Origin: a virus
Virus record (IMG/VR): IMGVR_UViG_3300043399_001053
Location: 1-30,971 of that record
Direction: 5' to 3' (one strand)
DNA length: 30,971 bases
The notes below the pieces were generated by a model. That model saw only the letters and a list, made by a program, of their open reading frames with translations. It was not told where the DNA came from and did no database searches. The position numbers and the translations under genes are program-made. How positions within the stretch are numbered: the stretch's first letter is position 1; every line of letters begins with the position of its first letter. Shown here in pieces: positions 2,074-16,898 of this stretch.

Positions 2074-2435
2074 CACGCACCTCGCACTTTCATAAATGAC
2101 AAATAGACCCGGCTTTCCAATTGCTTTGGCGGGCGGCATACGTAGGGACGGCTACGCTCCAGGAAAACATAACCGCTGGAGATCAACGCCTGCATCACTT
2201 GTCCTGCTTGGGTCTCAACGTCCTCAGTTTTTGCCCACACCCGCACGCGCAAAACTTCCGAAGCCGGTTCAGCAGGCACATTGGAGGTGTCATTCCACGC
2301 TCCCTGGCTGCTATCCCAGATTATTCCAACTGCTTCAAGTGCTGCATACATATCATCCTGCTTGGGAGTGGGTGGGATATTCTTTTTCAGCGCTACATTT
2401 ATCGCCGCAGAATATTTTTTCGTCATCTTAGCCAT
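2073..2435 (-). CDS. Hypothetical phage protein
   Basis: 120 residues from ATG 2435, with a GTG at 2438 as alternative. GAGGTG lies just upstream and the start overlaps the preceding stop as TGATG. The sequence is soluble and mixed alpha/beta. An N-terminal helical part (KKYSAAINVALKKN, QDDMYAALEAVGIIWD) precedes a likely beta part (EVLRVRVWAKTEDVE, ISSGYVFLERSRPYVC). I do not recognise a family. It sits between the J-domain gene and the small membrane gene in the coupled run, and ends in Arg-Gly-Ala-stop for the same coupling reason as its neighbours. Confidence 0.65.
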   Translation of the reverse strand: MAKMTKKYSAAINVALKKNIPPTPKQDDMYAALEAVGIIWDSSQGAWNDTSNVPAEPASEVLRVRVWAKTEDVETQAGQVMQALISSGYVFLERSRPYVCRPPKQLESRVYLSFMKVRGA

Positions 2436-3025
2436 CACACACCTCGCTTTCCCGTAGCCAGGTCATAAGCTTTCTGCACCTGGTCAAACATCACAGCATC
2501 ACCACCGGCATCCGGATGATGCAATCTCGCAAGCTTGAAATACGCCTGCTTGATCTCATCAGTGCTTGCTGAAGGATCCACACCCAGCACCTCCCACCAC
2601 TTGCGCGTCTCCGGATCTGGCAACGCCATGTAACCAGCAAATGCCTGGTCGAGCGATCCCACGCCCCAGCGTTCCTGTCCGCGCAGCGCCTCGAGATGCT
2701 TCACGATTGCCCACAGATTGTCCTCAACCGTTTTGTACTTATCACAGGCAAAAACGATCGGTTTCTTTTTCCAATCGAAGTAAACCGCCACACCAGGATC
2801 ATCCGGCATACGTTGGTTGCTGTATGGAATGCCATCATTCCGCACCCGCAGATTCGTAGAAATGATCATGCTCGATCCGCGCATCAATCGGATCTCATTC
2901 TCAAGGATCCGTGCGCTGCTGATGATGCTGTGCTTCCCGAACTGCGAGCTCTTACGGTCAAAATATTTGGTTCTTCCCCAGCCAACAGGCCATGAAAGGG
3001 GATAATTGGTAATTTCATCGTTCAT
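2435..3025 (-). CDS. Phage J-domain (DnaJ-like) protein
   Basis: 196 residues from ATG 3025 (MNDEITNYPLSWPVGWGRTK), chosen because GGAG lies six bases upstream; TTG 3037 and ATG 3031 are in frame but badly spaced. The protein has an N-terminal domain of about 125 residues known from phage and plasmid J proteins, with YPLSWPVGW, STNLRVRNDGIPYSNQ, DDPGVAVYF and DNLWAIVKHLEALR. A C-terminal J domain follows: WWEVLGVDPSASTDEIKQAY then LARLHHPDAGG with the invariant HPD. J domains stimulate Hsp70 ATPase, and no phage DnaK is seen, so host Hsp70 is the probable partner. Known phage J proteins help replication initiation or morphogenesis; which applies here is unknown. It follows the parM/parR-like pair. 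Confidence 0.88.
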   Translation of the reverse strand: MNDEITNYPLSWPVGWGRTKYFDRKSSQFGKHSIISSARILENEIRLMRGSSMIISTNLRVRNDGIPYSNQRMPDDPGVAVYFDWKKKPIVFACDKYKTVEDNLWAIVKHLEALRGQERWGVGSLDQAFAGYMALPDPETRKWWEVLGVDPSASTDEIKQAYFKLARLHHPDAGGDAVMFDQVQKAYDLATGKRGV

Positions 3026-3035
3026 ATTCATCTCC

Positions 3036-3050
3036 AATTATTGACGGTTA
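3036..3050. repeat. 15-bp repeat copy 1 downstream of parR-like gene
   Basis: The sequence AATTATTGACGGTTA (TAACCGTCAATAATT on the minus strand) fills the short gap between the parR-like stop and the J-domain gene. An identical 15-mer lies at 4433-4447 upstream of parM. The two copies bracket the parM/parR pair in the same orientation. Candidate binding site for the ParR-like protein or another regulator. Confidence 0.6.
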
Positions 3051-3350
3051 CTATTCATCATCATCCACGACAAAGGCGCCCACGATCTGAGCAGCCGCTT
3101 CACGAGCCTTATCCATGTCGCTATCCTCAACCGCCTGCTGCATCACCGGTCCCAGCTCACCGTTCAACGCCGCGGTCACCAGATCCCAAACAAATGCAAA
3201 TCGTTTCTTGTTCGGAATCGCATCCAGCCAGGCGAACGTCTTATCATCCCTGGCATTTACACCGCGCTTTCGCAATCCTTCAATGCGTATCCGCTCACTG
3301 GGAATTGCGTCGTGCGGTCTGCCTCTTTTTGGTAAAAGTTGATCGCTCAT
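3051..3350 (-). CDS. Putative ParR-like partner of the ParM-like actin
   Basis: 99 residues from ATG 3350, overlapping the parM stop by four bases (ATGA); the frame extension to 3374 lies inside parM and is dropped. The N-terminus is basic (LPKRGRPHDAIPSERIRIEGLRKRG) and could bind DNA. The middle is helical (NKKRFAFVWDLVTAALNGELG) and the tail acidic (AFVVDDDE). Known ParM operons encode a small DNA-binding ParR directly after parM; ParR binds parC repeats and caps the ParM filament through a C-terminal segment. Size, position, basic start and acidic end fit, but there is no recognisable ParR signature, so the call is mainly by context. Confidence 0.55.
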   Translation of the reverse strand: MSDQLLPKRGRPHDAIPSERIRIEGLRKRGVNARDDKTFAWLDAIPNKKRFAFVWDLVTAALNGELGPVMQQAVEDSDMDKAREAAAQIVGAFVVDDDE

Positions 3351-4378: not shown

Positions 4379-4452
4379 TTTGTTCTCCTATAGTTTGAAT
4401 ATCGATTTTTTGTCGGTTAAATATTCTTCAAAAATTATTGACGGTTAAGAAT
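4379..4452 (-). promoter_or_regulatory. AT-rich parM leader, candidate parC/operator
   Basis: The 74 bases between the lipoprotein stop and parM are much more AT-rich than their surroundings. Read on the minus strand they contain TAACCGTCAATAATT (4433-4447), a related TTTAACCGACA about 20 bases later (4412-4422), then ATCGATATTC and the parM ribosome binding site. In ParM-type systems the centromere parC and the autoregulated promoter usually lie exactly here. I see only one full and one partial repeat in it, fewer than in classic parC sites. Confidence 0.4.
4433..4447. repeat. 15-bp repeat copy 2 upstream of parM
   Basis: AATTATTGACGGTTA, identical to the copy at 3036-3050 and in the same orientation. 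The two copies bracket the parM/parR-like operon. A looser match in the opposite orientation (TGACCGTCACTAA) occurs at 9149-9161 in the non-coding region upstream of the primase gene. Confidence 0.6.
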
Positions 4453-5535
4453 TCATGCCCCTCCCCCATGAGCAGAAACATGAGCGCCCGTTTCATGACT
4501 CATATTCAAAGGTGGATCGATCACCGGCGCAAACACGTATGGATGGGGGAGTACCTGTTTCTCCTTCCATGCCTGCAACAACGCCAGCCCCTTCTCATTG
4601 AATTTCAACCGTCCGCTCCCAATGCTATTAACCATCTGCTTTGCCTGGAACCAATTACGCAGCCGGTAAATAACAGCGCGTGTCAATGTCGTGCCATCGC
4701 CTTCCCAGTTATTCACTCCCAGCGTCTCACCCTCATCCAATACGCGGCAGGTCAATTCCGTCAACTGTTGATCGGAACATGGCACAGAATAATTTTCGAT
4801 AGCAACATTGCCTCCGCCATGATCCTTCACGATCGATACAGGCACTTCATTCTGATTTTGTTTGACACTCGCTTGGCTTTTCACAAGTTCTGGCTTCAGT
4901 GGAATCAGATCCGGTTCATGCACAGCCTGAGCGGGCACAGCACTTCGAGGCTTTGCTTCATCTTTGGGTCGCGCAGCCAACGCGAACAACCCAACCCCCA
5001 GCAGGAACACACCCAGCGCACCCAACACAAATAAGCGGACAACGAAATCAGTCTCACCATGCTCTTCATATATCTTCGCATCAGTCATCGCTTTTGATTG
5101 AGTCGGTGCTTCCTTCACAGCGGTCAACTGTCCAGCTTCCAATGCCTGGTCAATCGGCACCTGCGTATTCACGATCGATTGCTGGGTAGCTGTCAAAGGC
5201 ACCGATGTCAAAGCTGCAGTCGCGGTCCACTGGTTAGCCTGAGCCGTCCATTGATTCGCTTCAGCGGTCCATGCCAATTGCTGCTGTATCCGGTCTTTTT
5301 CCTGGGCAGTCGCCTGGGTATCCAGACGCCGCGCCTCATCCGCCGTCGCCTGCGCCACGATCGCAGTCCCCTGCCAATCCACAGTGGGTGATGGGGTGAT
5401 CGTGATCGTTGCTGTAGCGGCTGGCGTCACGCTGCGCTGTACTTCCGGAGTCCCCAGTGCTGCAGCCTGCACCGCCAATGGCGACCCACATCCAGTCAAG
5501 ACCAAAGCCGTTAGAAGGAAAATCATTTTTCTCAT
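4453..5535 (-). CDS. Lipoprotein with TM segment and cytoplasmic winged-helix-like domain
   Basis: 360 residues from ATG 5535, which has AGGTG six bases upstream. The same frame stays open back to 5877, but that stretch holds non-coding repeats. A lipoprotein signal (MRKMIFLLTALVLTGC, lipobox Cys 16) is followed by a Thr/Ala-rich stalk with TITPSPT and tandem ANQWTA units near 92-106. A transmembrane helix (FVVRLFVLGALGVFLLGVGLFAL) lies at about 165-187. The C-terminal 170 residues should therefore be cytoplasmic and include a winged-helix-like region (LTRAVIYRLRNWFQAKQ then GRLKFNEKGLALLQAW, about 283-323), a pattern seen in Anaerolineae proteins. Lying between the iteron array and parM, it could tether phage DNA to the membrane. 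A unimolecular spanin is an alternative, but the long cytoplasmic domain argues against it. Confidence 0.75.
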   Translation of the reverse strand: MRKMIFLLTALVLTGCGSPLAVQAAALGTPEVQRSVTPAATATITITPSPTVDWQGTAIVAQATADEARRLDTQATAQEKDRIQQQLAWTAEANQWTAQANQWTATAALTSVPLTATQQSIVNTQVPIDQALEAGQLTAVKEAPTQSKAMTDAKIYEEHGETDFVVRLFVLGALGVFLLGVGLFALAARPKDEAKPRSAVPAQAVHEPDLIPLKPELVKSQASVKQNQNEVPVSIVKDHGGGNVAIENYSVPCSDQQLTELTCRVLDEGETLGVNNWEGDGTTLTRAVIYRLRNWFQAKQMVNSIGSGRLKFNEKGLALLQAWKEKQVLPHPYVFAPVIDPPLNMSHETGAHVSAHGGGA

Positions 5536-5873
5536 AGTCATCACCTTTTTTAATGAACCAAATGAACGAAGATGAACTTGCCCCAGCCAAAAAACGTGCC
5601 TGTCTCTTTTATCCATAGCAAATAAAAGCCGTAAGTAATATCTAAGTTCATTAAAGTTCATCAGGTTCATTAATTTGTATAACAATGTTCGCGTAATCAT
5701 CATCAAATGAAGCAAATGAACCTCGATGAACTGAATTTTGGGGGCGGCTGATGCATTTGTTTTGTTCAAAATTGCAGAAACCACGCCCAAAAGCCAGAAA
5801 ATCAATCCAAATTTGCCTACAAAACAAATTGATTCACCATGGCGCAAAATACGTTCATTCAAGTTCATCAGGT
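5536..5873. repeat. Non-coding region with four blocks of ATGAAC iterons
   Basis: This 338-base gap next to the primase gene holds twelve ATGAAC-type hexamers in four three-copy blocks, the last running into the primase stop (to 5877). Block A, plus strand: 5553, 5562, 5572. Block B, minus strand: 5646-5651, 5656-5661, 5665-5670. Block C, plus: 5707 (ATGAAG), 5716, 5726. Block D, minus: 5853-5858, 5863-5868, 5872-5877. Within every block, read in its own direction, the hexamers are separated by exactly 3 and then 4 bases, about one helical turn apart. Blocks A/B and C/D form two inverted pairs. This is the design of a replication origin iteron cluster or a partition centromere. Part of the frame is open but a coding origin would not explain copies in both orientations. 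Confidence 0.8.
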
Positions 5874-8800
5874 TCATTCCTCATCCTCCGGATCGAACAT
5901 AGTGCCCTGTTCAGCCTGCCCTGTGGGTTGTATGTTCCCTACAATGGGAGAATCATCCCGCATGGCAGCCCGCAGCTCGTCTGTAAGCCCATAGCGCAGC
6001 TTCGCCACTTCCAATTTGTCCTCATCAAAGATGATCACGTAGCCCTTGCCCACCCGGTGAGCTGGCAGCATCAACGTATCCTGGCAAATATCCGAGGTGG
6101 TCTTGGTCGTCAGGCTTTTGCCACGGCGTTTTTTCTTATCATCCTCGTCCGCGCCTTCCTCTTCTTCGCCGAGATTCATTTCATCCATCTTGATATTGGC
6201 GACCACCGCAATATCTCGTGTGAAGGCATATAAAGCATTGCCCCATCCATTGACCGTTCCACGGTGTAGATACTTTTCATATTTTGGATCTTCTTGAATG
6301 GCGATAACCGCATCCAAAACGCGTGCATCCAATCCCTGGGATCGCTTCAAAATGCTATGGTGATAAAGCATCCTTGCGAATGTCTCAATATCCTTCAACA
6401 TTTCAGGATCATCTTTCGCAATATGCTTGAGCGGTCTCATCACCTCGTTATGGCGGGTGCTGATTGTGAAGTCAGTCATGCTTTCATCAATTTGGAATTC
6501 ATCTGCTTGCCATTTTTCTAAGCGCCAGCGTAGTAACTTATTCACGACTGATTGCCGCTCTGTATAGAATTTTGGAGGCAGTTCTTGTGGTATCCCCTTT
6601 TTCTTAAGTTCAAGAGGACTATGTTGGCTCATTTCAAAGGTAACGAATCGGTTCTCGGTCGCATCGTCCTTAAATCGACCGTACATCGTCACAATCTTGG
6701 GACCATATACAAACGCCATTTCACCGCGTTGCCTGCGTGTTCCATCCTGCATCAGAACTTCCACCATCTTCCAAACTTTGCCGGTCTTTTTCTTGTATCC
6801 CACGTTCAGCAGCACGCCGCGATCGTCGAATTTGTCGCTGATGTCCATTTCATCCATGAACAGGGTCCCGCGGAACGTATCGATTGCATCCTTATATGAG
6901 GCAGTGGTACTGATACCTGTGGAGATGATCAGCCGATAGCATAAATATCCGATCCGCAGCATGACCTCGGTCTTGCCTGTATCTGTGCCGCCGCGTGCTC
7001 GCATGTAGGGGATCGCCGGAAAACAGTCATATAGGTAGGTCAACATCACGTAATAAGCCGCGAGCTTGTAGTGCAGCGGGTTATCGAAAAGCACGTACCG
7101 CCTCAAAAACAATTCGATCTCTGCCGCCAATTGACGTTCCTTCACCAACTCCCCCAATCCAGTGGGGAACATCACTGCCCCTTCGATGATCACTGAATCA
7201 GGTTCGCGTGGCACATATCGTATGCCGTTGATGTCGATATATTTCGCTGTCCCAAACCGACCTTCGGGGTTGCGGTATGCGAACATCGACTCATTCTTCG
7301 ATGGGTCATAGATGTATTCCAGCAGCCACCCTTTGCCATCTTCGGTTCTGATCCACCCGCCAAAGGTTTCGAGGATCTCGTTCGTCTTTCCATCTTCATC
7401 CTCCACCTTTTCTTTGCGAGCAGTAGCCAGCAGGTTTTTGAATTCACGAATCCCGATCTGCAAAGCATCAGAAAATGCAGTCCTCAGTTGTTCCACCACC
7501 AGGCGATCCTCGATCCGTGCAATAACCTCGATGACCCGCTTTGTGGATGTGATCTTCTCTGCGCTGCCAAAGCCCATCTTGCCTGTGGCGCTTGCCATCT
7601 TCATTACGATCGGTCGCGCCTCATTCAACGCCTTGCGGAATTCTTCCTTTTCCTTGACATCTTCCACGTTGGTGTCTTTAGCCCACTGCCTCAGATCATT
7701 CGCATCTTTTACAACTTTTTCTCTGCCATCTGGTCGTGACCATTTCTTTTCGGGCCAGTCGATGATCCTCGCCATGCCACCAACGGTGTCAGCGATCGGG
7801 TAATCATTTTCCTTGCCTGTGATGGCTTCCTTGCCTACGCCGTCACGGTCATATGCCAGATACATTGTCTGATGTTGCTGTGCCAGGCGTGACAATTCTT
7901 TTTGTGTGTGTTGGTTTGACCAACCCACACCCGCAGTTGCCACCGCCGAATAGCCATGAATGCCAGCCGTGACCGCATCCATTTGACCTTCGACGATAAG
8001 CAACTCAGTTGCCTTGTTGTAATAAACATGGTTGTAATAAAGTTCTTTTTTGCCGCCAACCAGTTCATTGGGCAGGTTGTAGCTTTTACGTTCTTCAGCT
8101 TCGCCGCCTTCATTCACCACCTCATCGAAGGGAGGGATATTTCGACGGCTGAAATATTGCACCGCCCCGCCATGTATGTGAGGGAAGATAATGCCTGGCA
8201 CGCCTAGCATCGATGGAATGCGTCCATTGGTTACCCAGCGCCCTTTGGGTTGGATGCCATTTGCATTGCACCAACCAGTGACCGCCTCTGCACCCTTGAA
8301 TGTTTTCCATTCCTTCAGCCCAAGTAGCGCAACAGATGCAGGCGCATCGAGCGGAACACCGCCCGCCGCCAATGCCGCCGCCATCTCCTCATAAAATCGA
8401 GCAGCAGCAGTCCGATCCAGTCCACGATCCCCGCCTCTTCCACTGAAGCCCAGACCTGCACCACGATGGATGATCTTCTTACGACCAAGCTCATCTTCCT
8501 CGCCATAAGTCACCAGCCTGATCACGTTTTCATCAATTCCGCGATCCTTCATATAGGTCATGGCTTGATCATCTGCCAACAGCCATTTTTGGAAGATCTC
8601 TTGGGCAATATCAAAGGCATTCATTTGCACACGGAATGCCAGGCGTTTTTCAGGGTCCCGTTCTTGCGGTTCCCATTCAGGCATCCCGGCTTTTTTTGCC
8701 AGGGTCGCCAAAGCTCCCATGAAATCTGTGCGGTCGCGCGTCTCAACCCAGAAGATCACATCGTTGTATCTTCCGCCGCCATAATCGCCATTTCCATTCC

Positions 8801-11087: not shown

Positions 11088-12068
11088 TCATGCCATCGCT
11101 TCCACCACCGCGCGGATCTGCGTCCGGCTGGCGCGTAAGTAGTTCTTTTGAGTTGTCCGAAAATCACGGTGTCGCATCTGCCTGCGAGTGGCATCAGCCG
11201 CCGCGTATTGAGAGCCGGTCTGTTGCAATGCCATCCCATAAAACTGGCAGCCCATCGAAGCCCGCAGATCGTGGCAGGTCACATCCACTTTTGCCTTCTC
11301 GCCGATCAACTTCAACCGTCTGCGTAACTGACCGCCAGTAACCCGCTTGCCATCCCAATTCACAAACAAAGGCGTTCCCCCATCATCTTCCACTGGCTTG
11401 GGCATTCGCTCGATCCACTGCGATATCAACGTCGCCATATCCTCTGCCATCTCGATCTTCTGATCAGAACCACCCTTGCCGCGTACACGGATCTGCAGGC
11501 GGGCGAAATTCACATCATCCACGTTCAGCCCCTCGATCTCCGAGATGCGCAGCCCGTGGGGGATACCCATCAGTCGAAATGCGATCTGATCCCGTTCGCC
11601 CAAGGTGACGTGTTTCTCGGTCTGCCGCCTCAAATGGGACATTGAGCCTGCCACCGATTCGAGAGCCTGGTATTCATCTGGGGTCTTGTCGCGTGGTTCA
11701 TATTCCGTGACCTTGCGCTCAACACATAAGGTCACATCACCAATGCCCAGCCACTGACTCATCAGCTTCACCGTTGCTAAACGACGGTTGAATGTCGCAG
11801 GTGCAACCCTGTTCATGTCCATCCATTCAAAATAAGACTTGACCAATGCTTCATTCAAAATGCCAGGCGAAAAGCTCTCCCCGTATGCCTGTTCATAAAA
11901 ACGATCCAGATGCCGTGCATCCTGCAAATAGGCATCGATGGAATTAACGCTCAGCGTTCCGCGCTTGCCAAACTTGCGATGATCACTATGCAGCCACGAA
12001 CCGAAAGTCTCAACCCAATGCATGGCAGGCGCAATTTGTAATGTTGCGAGATTAATTTGCTGTAGCAT
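11088..12068 (-). CDS. Tyrosine recombinase (Xer/integrase family)
   Basis: 326 residues from ATG 12068, with GGAGG seven bases upstream; longer frames to 12149 lie in the upstream gene. An N-terminal SAM-like core-binding domain (SVNSIDAYLQDARHLDRFYEQ, NRRLATVKLMSQWL) precedes a catalytic domain with the full set: Arg 174 in HGLRISEIEGLNVDDV, Lys 198 in RGKGG, His 266 and Arg 269 in CHDLRASMG, His 300 in RHRDFRTTQKNY and nucleophile Tyr 310. It should therefore be active. It lies in the leftward lytic/early operon rather than next to the repressor. A second integrase-type recombinase is present on the other strand, so dimer resolution, as with Cre, is as plausible as integration. Candidate sites: 9109-9145 and 12986-13044. 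Confidence 0.9.
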   Translation of the reverse strand: MLQQINLATLQIAPAMHWVETFGSWLHSDHRKFGKRGTLSVNSIDAYLQDARHLDRFYEQAYGESFSPGILNEALVKSYFEWMDMNRVAPATFNRRLATVKLMSQWLGIGDVTLCVERKVTEYEPRDKTPDEYQALESVAGSMSHLRRQTEKHVTLGERDQIAFRLMGIPHGLRISEIEGLNVDDVNFARLQIRVRGKGGSDQKIEMAEDMATLISQWIERMPKPVEDDGGTPLFVNWDGKRVTGGQLRRRLKLIGEKAKVDVTCHDLRASMGCQFYGMALQQTGSQYAAADATRRQMRHRDFRTTQKNYLRASRTQIRAVVEAMA

Positions 12069-12447
12069 CACCCGCCTCCGATTTCCCATGAACTGGGCAG
12101 TTAACGCCATCGCAATGAACCGGATCAGTCCCTGTGCATATAGGCTCAAGCAACTTGGATATTTGTTCGTAGATCTTCGAGTAATTTGCCCAGGTATTGA
12201 GTACCGAACAGTTGTAATAAGCTTCCTGTGTAGCCGGATCGATCCCCAGTTCGGCGTTCTTCTCAGCGATCCACTCTTTGGTCTGTCTGCCCCACGTGGT
12301 AGGGCGGTAGCCCGTTTCCCCGTACATAACGTAAATCACTTCATAGGTCCTGCCATCGAAGCTGCTCAATAATCCGCAGATCACATAGTCTGGCATTCGT
12401 GGCGCTTCACGGATCGATGTAATAATATTGGTTGATTGGTTTGTCAT
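12052..12447 (-). CDS. Conserved phage hypothetical protein
   Basis: 131 residues from ATG 12447, with TAGGAG six bases upstream. N-terminal part is beta-rich (PDYVICGLLSSFDGRTYEVIYVMYGETGYRPTTWG) followed by helices (KEWIAEKNAELGIDPATQEAYYNCSVLNTW, SKIYEQISKLL). A C-terminal Cys/His cluster (CTGTDPVHCDGVNCPVHG) could bind one metal ion. The gene overlaps the recombinase start by 17 bases, implying coupled translation, so it might be an accessory factor. I recognise no named family. Confidence 0.7.
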   Translation of the reverse strand: MTNQSTNIITSIREAPRMPDYVICGLLSSFDGRTYEVIYVMYGETGYRPTTWGRQTKEWIAEKNAELGIDPATQEAYYNCSVLNTWANYSKIYEQISKLLEPICTGTDPVHCDGVNCPVHGKSEAGDATAN

Positions 12448-15245: not shown

Positions 15246-16898
15246 ATGTCCGACCTTCGCCTCGAACCGCCTCCCTCCACACTTCCCCCAGGCTCCACCG
15301 TCTGGGCGTACCTGCGCGATTCAGGCGGACCCACCCAGGATCGATCCGTTGAACAACAACGCCACATCATCGAAGAATACTGCACCAAATGGGGGCTTGT
15401 CCTCATCCAACCGCCCTTCGAAGACGTCCACAAATCAGGCACCACGGTCAACAAACGCAATGAATTTGAATACATGATGTCCCTCAGCGCATCCAAAGCG
15501 CTGCGCCCCAAGGGATTACTGATCTGGAATCACGCCCGCTTCAGCCGCGGCGGTCCCTACGATGCCCAATTCTATAAATCCACGCTTCGAAGCCGTGGCA
15601 TCATCATTCATTCCCTCACCGACAAAATACCTGAAGGAAAATTCGCTCCCGTCATCGAGACTCTCATCGATACCTCGAACCAACAAAAAGCTGAAGAGGC
15701 AAGCATGGGTGCCTGGCGCGGTCTGCGTCATCTCGTCAAACAAGGTGCCGTGCCTGGCACACCGCCCAAGGGCATCAAGCGCAATCCGATCACCGTCGTA
15801 TCAGAACAAGGTGTAGAGCACACCGCCCACCGCTGGGACCCAGATCCACGCTACGAACACCGCATCCTCAAAGCCTTCATGATGAAAGCCGAGGGCAAAT
15901 CCCTGGCACAGATCCACCGCGCCACCCATCTCTATAGCCGCCAAAGCGGGTACACCTCCTTCTTTCAAAACGTTATCTATATCGGCATCCTGAAGTTTGG
16001 CGATCTCGTCGTTGAAGATTACTGCAAGCCCATCGTGCCCCGCGACACCTGGGATAAAGTCCAAGCCATCATTGCCGCCTACGCCAAACGCTCCAGCACG
16101 AAAAGCGACCTGTATCATCCCCGCCGCGTCAACGCCACCTACGCACTCTCCGGCATAATCAAATGTGCCCGCTGTGGGGGAGCCATGAACGGTCTCACCT
16201 CACGTCAGAAATCCGGCTCCGACTATCGCCGCTATCGTTGCAACAATTCCAAACAGGCAATGGAATGCACCGCCAAACCCATCCCCGCAGCCTTGGCAGA
16301 AAAACTCGTCATCAAAAGAATCGAAGGCTTCTTAAGGGATGAAAATAACCTGGTGAATCTCTTTACCCAATTCGCATCTAACCAGGCAGACTACAATGCC
16401 ACAGCGGATAAAGCCATCGCCTCCCATCGTGCCGAGCTTGCCACCGTCCGAAAAGCCTTGTCCAACACTGCCAATGCCATCGCCGAACTGGGCGGCTCCG
16501 CCACCCTTCTCAAAAAGCTAAAGAACCTCGAAGCCCAAGACGCCGAGCTCACCGCCAAGATCCTCGAGCTTGAAAGCCAAAAGACCGAACCCATCAAAAT
16601 CCCAACTCACGCTGAAGCACGTGGTGCAGCAGAGCGCATCATCGCCAATCTACACTCCAACGACCCCGTCCACGTCCGTCAAACCCTTCTCAGCCTCGTC
16701 TACCAGATCCTCGCCGATCGCCACGGCAGGCAGCTGGTCATGAAAGTAGATCTCTACTTTGATAAAAAAAAAGAACTGACGTATAATAGCCCTACTGTGC
16801 TTACATTACATGCCCCTGTGGGGGCACCTATCTATAGACACAGTCTGCAAATCGAATATCTGATCCAAAATCCAGGCAATCCTCTACCCGTAAAATAA
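15246..16898 (+). CDS. Large serine recombinase (probable phage integrase)
   Basis: 550 residues from ATG 15246. The N-terminal resolvase domain has TVWAYLRDSGG with Arg 24 and presumed nucleophile Ser 26, RSVEQQRHIIEEYC, and the arginine motif WNHARFSRGG near 95-103. The recombinase domain follows (GLRHLVKQGAVPGTPPKG at 159-176, VIYIGILKFGD near 243-253). A zinc beta-ribbon has Cys 307, 310, 332 and 341. A coiled-coil motif lies at about 390-455 (LKKLKNLEAQDAELTAKILE). Large serine recombinases integrate phage DNA at attP/attB with short cores and need a directionality factor to excise. It ends the lysogeny cassette. The nucleophile region has an insertion of Gly-Gly after Ser compared with typical members, but looks intact. 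Confidence 0.93.
   Translation: MSDLRLEPPPSTLPPGSTVWAYLRDSGGPTQDRSVEQQRHIIEEYCTKWGLVLIQPPFEDVHKSGTTVNKRNEFEYMMSLSASKALRPKGLLIWNHARFSRGGPYDAQFYKSTLRSRGIIIHSLTDKIPEGKFAPVIETLIDTSNQQKAEEASMGAWRGLRHLVKQGAVPGTPPKGIKRNPITVVSEQGVEHTAHRWDPDPRYEHRILKAFMMKAEGKSLAQIHRATHLYSRQSGYTSFFQNVIYIGILKFGDLVVEDYCKPIVPRDTWDKVQAIIAAYAKRSSTKSDLYHPRRVNATYALSGIIKCARCGGAMNGLTSRQKSGSDYRRYRCNNSKQAMECTAKPIPAALAEKLVIKRIEGFLRDENNLVNLFTQFASNQADYNATADKAIASHRAELATVRKALSNTANAIAELGGSATLLKKLKNLEAQDAELTAKILELESQKTEPIKIPTHAEARGAAERIIANLHSNDPVHVRQTLLSLVYQILADRHGRQLVMKVDLYFDKKKELTYNSPTVLTLHAPVGAPIYRHSLQIEYLIQNPGNPLPVK

Follow-up and report, generated by a model that had tools for sequence, protein, structure and literature searches.

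A predicted lipoprotein with a cytoplasmic winged-helix domain encoded upstream of a phage parM: a tentative membrane tether

What might a predicted lipoprotein that crosses the membrane and ends in a winged-helix-like domain do beside the partition genes of a virus? The window (IMG/VR record IMGVR_UViG_3300043399_001053, the whole stretch of 30,971 bases of viral DNA analysed here) carries on its minus strand, in this order, a primase-like gene, an ATGAAC array, the gene of the protein in question (P0001), parM, a ParR-like gene and a DnaJ-domain gene (Table 1); P0001 was thus correctly placed between array and parM by the original prediction. The 360-aa frame of P0001 begins MRKMIFLLTALVLTGCGSPL; an alternative longer ORF (4453–5877, 474 aa) reads through the array upstream. 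Position 5535 is supported as the start by a ribosome-binding site (AAGGTGATG) and by alignment with the start of the relative in contig L002. The parM-like gene matched phrog_691 ("partition protein", 4e-27) and PF17989 (3e-10), and the ParR-like gene had no Pfam match.

Table 1. Coordinates of P0001, its predicted parts, its neighbours and the associated repeats
Feature	Position	Strand	Basis or remark
P0001, predicted lipoprotein-stalk-TM-winged-helix protein, 360 aa	4453..5535	-	ten-member family, dN/dS 0.18
Predicted signal peptide with lipobox LTGC, residues 1–16	5488..5535	-	sequence
Predicted extracytoplasmic stalk, residues 52–160	5056..5382	-	outward arm, Pro113 turn (PLTATQQ), return arm
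Transmembrane helix, residues ~165–187	4975..5043	-	AF2 and family alignment
Predicted cytoplasmic beta-hairpin and winged-helix domain, residues 229–330	4546..4851	-	AF2, PDB comparison, Rctr41k_02 homology
parM-like actin homologue, next downstream of P0001	3347..4378	-	phrog_691, PF17989
Small ParR-like gene, conserved directly after parM	3051..3350	-	putative ribbon-helix-helix, from sequence pattern
ATGAAC triplet array, primase stop to P0001 start	5551..5877	.	triplets 9–10 bp apart, alternating orientation
Paired direct repeat TTAACCGnCAA, 28 bp apart, between P0001 gene and parM	4410..4448	-	further copy 3041–3051
TTAACCG repeat copies	window 4410–4420, 4438–4448 (-), 3041–3051 (-); L002 4461/4489; L003 9308/9335; L004 2899/2926; 15 more loci
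Primase-like protein (CHC2/Toprim), upstream neighbour of P0001	5874..8981	-	domain matches
DnaJ-domain protein (phrog_9210)	2435..3037	-	closely similar in window and L002; also L036, L037

The lipobox and the transmembrane (TM) helix that had been noticed in P0001 were both found, the former as LTGC at residues 13–16 and the latter as a single helix. The putative signal peptide and a lipobox of the pattern [LVI][ASTVI][GAS]C are those expected of a bacterial lipoprotein. The TM helix is preceded by acidic (GETDFVVR) and followed by basic residues (AARPK), consistent with an N-out/C-in topology, so that the Ala/Thr/Gln-rich stalk may lie outside the cell on a protein that is probably lipid-modified. 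The ANQWTA repeat described in this stalk is real (TRF, 21 bp, 2.4 copies), but it is short and retained only in L002, and is therefore not family-defining. In the AF2 model the stalk formed helices 54–108 and 117–187 at low pLDDT. Its coiled-coil periodicity showed no excess over shuffles, so a "helical hairpin" is suggested by the fixed arm lengths, the 7-residue insertions and the low-confidence helices only.

Structure prediction bore out the winged-helix-like domain. The AF2 model of the C-terminal domain, from seven aligned sequences (pLDDT 70–89), contained a beta-hairpin, helices 255–268 and 286–298, strands 302–306 and 309–312 (wing, 302–312) and helix 314–328, i.e. the helix-turn-helix, beta-hairpin wing and further helix of this fold. 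Winged-helix proteins also dominated the PDB matches of the model (LmrR, Z 8.0; AspA, Z 7.2–7.3), although scores of this size are frequent and indicate the fold class only, neither family nor function. AspA of plasmid pNOB8 and the PadR/MarR regulators share the fold with P0001 but are soluble. Sequence-specific DNA binding is usual, not universal, among winged-helix domains. The net charge of the domain was -1 in the window and -7 to +2 across the family (near-neutral to acidic), and therefore no strong DNA-binding surface was evident; Arg residues of the recognition helix were retained in nine (R286) or all (R293) of the ten family sequences.

No family above cut-off was found for P0001 in Pfam, NCBIfam or PADLOC, the PDB sequence search gave nothing meaningful, and phage and plasmid records yielded no related sequences. 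Two known classes were compared and rejected. ToxR/CadC-type regulators have an N-terminal cytoplasmic winged helix (Trans_reg_C), then a TM helix and an outside sensor; in P0001 this domain order is reversed, with no Pfam match above cut-off. Unimolecular spanins combine a lipobox with a C-terminal TM helix and almost no cytoplasmic tail, and lie in a lysis cassette; in P0001 ~170 residues, including a predicted folded domain, follow the TM helix, and the neighbours are primase and parM.

Profile scans detected relatives of P0001 in viral contigs L002, L036–L041, L068 and L069 and in one contig (L042) from a Chloroflexota MAG. L038 and L039 were identical in the region shown, and ten sequences including that of the window were compared. 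All nine relatives have the layout of P0001. A lipobox was present in five of the ten (window, L002, L038, L041 and L042), and a hydrophobic N-terminus without lipobox in the others (L036, L037, L040, L068 and L069). The outward arm of the stalk measured 60 residues and the return arm ~55 in most members, with an outward arm of 67 in L038, L040 and L042. The most conserved part of the family was the stalk, not the winged helix (mean pairwise identity 0.48 and 0.46 for the arms, 0.37 for the winged helix and 0.24 for the TM helix); between window and L002 the stalk was 88% and the domain 50% identical. For the same pair dN was 0.25 and dS 1.38 (dN/dS ~0.18), and purifying selection thus acts on P0001, with dN/dS ~0.07 in the stalk vs 0.29 in the winged helix. 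Only one of 400 Chloroflexota genomes (that of L042) matched P0001 beyond a short stretch, so the gene looks like one of a mobile element. Because L042 and relatives of ParM occur in Chloroflexota genomes, their sequences suggest a Chloroflexota host for the window phage.

ParM of the window's family accompanied two of the nine relatives (L002 and L041). It was not found in contigs L036–L038, L040, L068 and L069, nor in G001, the genome holding L042, and the family contigs without parM yielded no ParA-type ATPase (PF13614) that might take over partition; virus records may be fragments, so that absence of parM there is no proof. Identity between window and L002 was 65% for P0001, 68% for the DnaJ protein, 42% for ParM and 32% for the primase, while L003 had ParM (84%) and the ParR-like protein (77%) and lacked the P0001 gene. 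The P0001 gene thus moves independently of parM. Strict co-occurrence with parM, as for a ParMRC component, was accordingly not seen (L003 and six ParM-less contigs), and these six contigs argue that partition with ParM is not the core role of P0001. Most of the parM-less members adjoin primase or initiator genes, e.g. a Prim-Pol gene a little upstream in L036, L037, L038 and L040 and a DnaA_N protein gene nearby in L042. As a separate observation, the phrog_9210 DnaJ-domain protein (window 2435–3037, minus strand; L002 6589–7248; left ends of L036 and L037) was 67–80% identical among phages whose other genes were far more diverged.

The original prediction also held that P0001 could anchor the iterons to the membrane. 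The ATGAAC array is real (11 ATGAAC/GTTCAT in 320 bp vs a maximum of 4 per 330 bp in 500 shuffles), and iteron arrays came after the primase stop codon regardless of the next gene. Conserved synteny failed, since the P0001 gene is missing from four relatives that have both iterons and parM (L003, with its closely similar ParM, L021, L026 and L028); conversely, no ATGAAC-type array was seen in L036–L040, which carry P0001 relatives. Gene and iterons thus occur independently, and the iteron anchor was rejected as a specific claim. The primase-end arrays of the window (5551–5877), L003 (6722–7025) and L021 (3115–3409) had the same geometry, with alternating triplets 9–10 bp apart, and the motif varied from ATGAAC to ATGAGG (L003 and L021) or other TGAAC-like words.

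A link between membrane proteins and parM itself proved non-random. With a ParM profile, 29 viral loci were collected; together with the window, Rctr41k and L041 they gave 25 loci non-redundant at 90% ParM identity. The gene directly upstream of parM encoded a TM helix in 19 of the 25, vs 52 of 240 other genes (22%; Fisher p 8e-8, an approximate value because genes were ORF-called, TM helices were set by a hydropathy cut-off and the loci are related). In L006, L020 and L023 a TM protein was encoded one gene further upstream. One occupant of this slot, Rctr41k_02 (KX853513.1, 202 aa), annotated "hypothetical protein", has two TM helices and lies directly upstream of parM, and its C-terminus was homologous to the P0001 domain (hhalign probability 84–90, pairwise E 8e-6 to 2e-6). 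A viral structure search with the domain gave a 202-aa protein (E 2.4e-6) as sole match at E ≤ 1e-3, which we infer to be Rctr41k_02 itself because the lengths are identical. These two lines, from profiles and from structures, indicate that another phage has the P0001 domain itself in a gene upstream of parM. A scan of viral contigs for relatives of Rctr41k_02 found none.

Other parM loci carried two-TM proteins, the family model of which showed a weak winged-helix resemblance (eS10-type, Z 5.3–5.7, E 0.29 or worse); by hhalign the P0001 domain showed no homology to this family, to the two-TM protein of L022 or to the lipoprotein of L025. FtsK-like ATPases occupied the slot region in L006, L023, L027 and L032. 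It is conceivable, if somewhat doubtful, that an exchangeable membrane module precedes parMR, in which a lipoprotein-stalk-TM-winged-helix protein, a two-TM protein or an FtsK-like motor fills one slot. If so, actin-type partition or phage replication would have a dedicated transmembrane component, and its conserved stalk outside the cell could pass signals from the envelope on to the DNA. In L027 (3045–4922) a 625-aa protein directly upstream of parM joins a lipobox, a stalk, a TM helix and an FtsK/HerA-like ATPase, and in two Chloroflexota genomes (L047 and L048) a probable FtsK-like ATPase gene lies directly upstream of ParM-family genes.

Our tentative proposal, held with less than even confidence, is that P0001 may be a membrane tether of the phage replication or partition module, acting like phi29 p16.7 or TubY by analogy of role. 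The N-terminus would be exported and lipidated, or in some relatives held by an N-terminal hydrophobic segment; the stalk of near-fixed length would extend outward and reverse at the conserved proline; the TM helix would then leave the winged-helix domain on the cytoplasmic side. By docking either phage DNA or one of the replisome or segrosome proteins, this domain would allow the phage genome to be replicated or positioned at the membrane. The computed results are the layout, the predicted winged helix, the family, the purifying selection, the parM-adjacent membrane-protein homologue and the slot enrichment; we infer lipidation, topology, docking and the identity of what is docked. A tether agrees with the gene neighbourhood, with the domain shared with Rctr41k_02 and with p16.7, TubY and AlpAC as precedents; the winged helix after one TM helix (AF2), the homology to Rctr41k_02 and the enrichment of TM proteins upstream of parM favour it. 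Against it stand the near-neutral domain and the two-TM proteins of most other parM loci, which lack sequence homology.

Few systems are known that place phage DNA at the membrane. The phi29 protein p16.7 is an integral membrane protein that links or anchors replication there (PMC4974454). Compared from the literature alone, it resembles P0001 in proposed role; the lipobox, the long stalk outside the cell and the winged helix set P0001 apart, and phi29 replication is protein-primed. TubY, an accessory protein in a cytomotive partition locus (type III, TubZ), belongs to the segrosome and binds membranes; it has a helix-turn-helix domain, and its gene precedes the motor operon (PMC7762940). TubY is MerR-like and peripheral, with an amphipathic tail and a tubulin partner, whereas P0001 is of integral lipoprotein type and stands with an actin. 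In Corynebacterium prophage CGP3 the phage actin AlpC carries phage DNA to the membrane, where the DNA is mostly found, and the AlpA-AlpC-alpS system likewise has a phage actin, an adaptor and upstream repeats; AlpA is a DNA-binding adaptor, however, and the available part of that account describes no P0001-like membrane protein (PMC4446434). A literature search, with most subscription journals outside its coverage, found no membrane-anchored winged-helix partition or replication protein described. If the slot holds a membrane anchor, actin-type phage partition in this Chloroflexota-linked phage group would have an undescribed, modular membrane component; slot enrichment and shared domain make this a concrete, testable prediction.

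The conservation of the stalk above that of the winged helix goes beyond the needs of a pure tether and argues for an additional function outside the cell. For this reason the main rival is a transmembrane one-component regulator, an alternative already raised in the original prediction and somewhat unlikely in our estimate, in which the stalk would sense the outside (cell wall state, another phage or a partner) and alter the winged helix, which would control early phage genes, perhaps including its own promoter. Nearly fixed arm lengths, repeat arrays at the promoter region of P0001 itself in window and L002, and the frequency of winged-helix folds among regulators agree with sensing and control; however, L003, L021, L026 and L028 have the arrays in front of genes unrelated to P0001, the domain is not basic, and the homologue Rctr41k_02 has two TM helices and no such stalk. 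The charge and the fast divergence of the domain would suit a protein-protein adaptor that never touches DNA and serves only to hold ParM, ParR or a replication protein at the membrane, as would the quite different replication genes that family members accompany. The retained recognition-helix Arg residues speak against such an adaptor, its partner protein is hypothetical, and we regard it as unlikely.

Descent from, or kinship with, a membrane-anchored FtsK/HerA-like DNA motor, with anchor and C-terminal winged helix kept and the motor lost, is improbable. The L027 protein fuses its lipobox, stalk and TM helix to an ATPase weakly like FtsK/SpoIIIE and a helix-turn-helix-looking C-terminal stretch, and L006, L032 and L023 encode lipoprotein and ATPase as separate genes, but the L027 Pfam score was under cut-off, similarity of the stalks was limited to low-complexity stretches, and hhalign with single sequences found no homology of the P0001 domain to the FtsK-like C-termini of L006, L023, L027 and L032. 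Least credible of all is a surface lipoprotein for superinfection exclusion or spanin-like lysis: the PHROG matches behind it (Rz-like spanin, E 0.053; Cor exclusion, E 0.41) are very weak and span the N-terminal residues 1–53 only, whereas P0001 has a large predicted cytoplasmic domain and lies in the early replication region, not in a lysis cassette.

A second repeat was found in the neighbourhood of P0001. Contigs with TTAACCG pairs 27–28 bp apart (18 in L041) had one pair each, adjoining parMR or close to it (19 pairs observed vs 1.6 in shuffles); the pairs lay upstream of parM in the window, L002 and L023, and after the ParR-like gene in most others. Such a pair is a candidate parC/centromere or recombination site and, as a centromere, a better candidate than the ATGAAC array. 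The repeat consensus was aTTCTTAACCGyCAAnAAT. The window phage also carries recombinases of two types, a tyrosine integrase alongside a large recombinase of the serine type (11088–12149, minus strand, and 15246–16898, plus strand).
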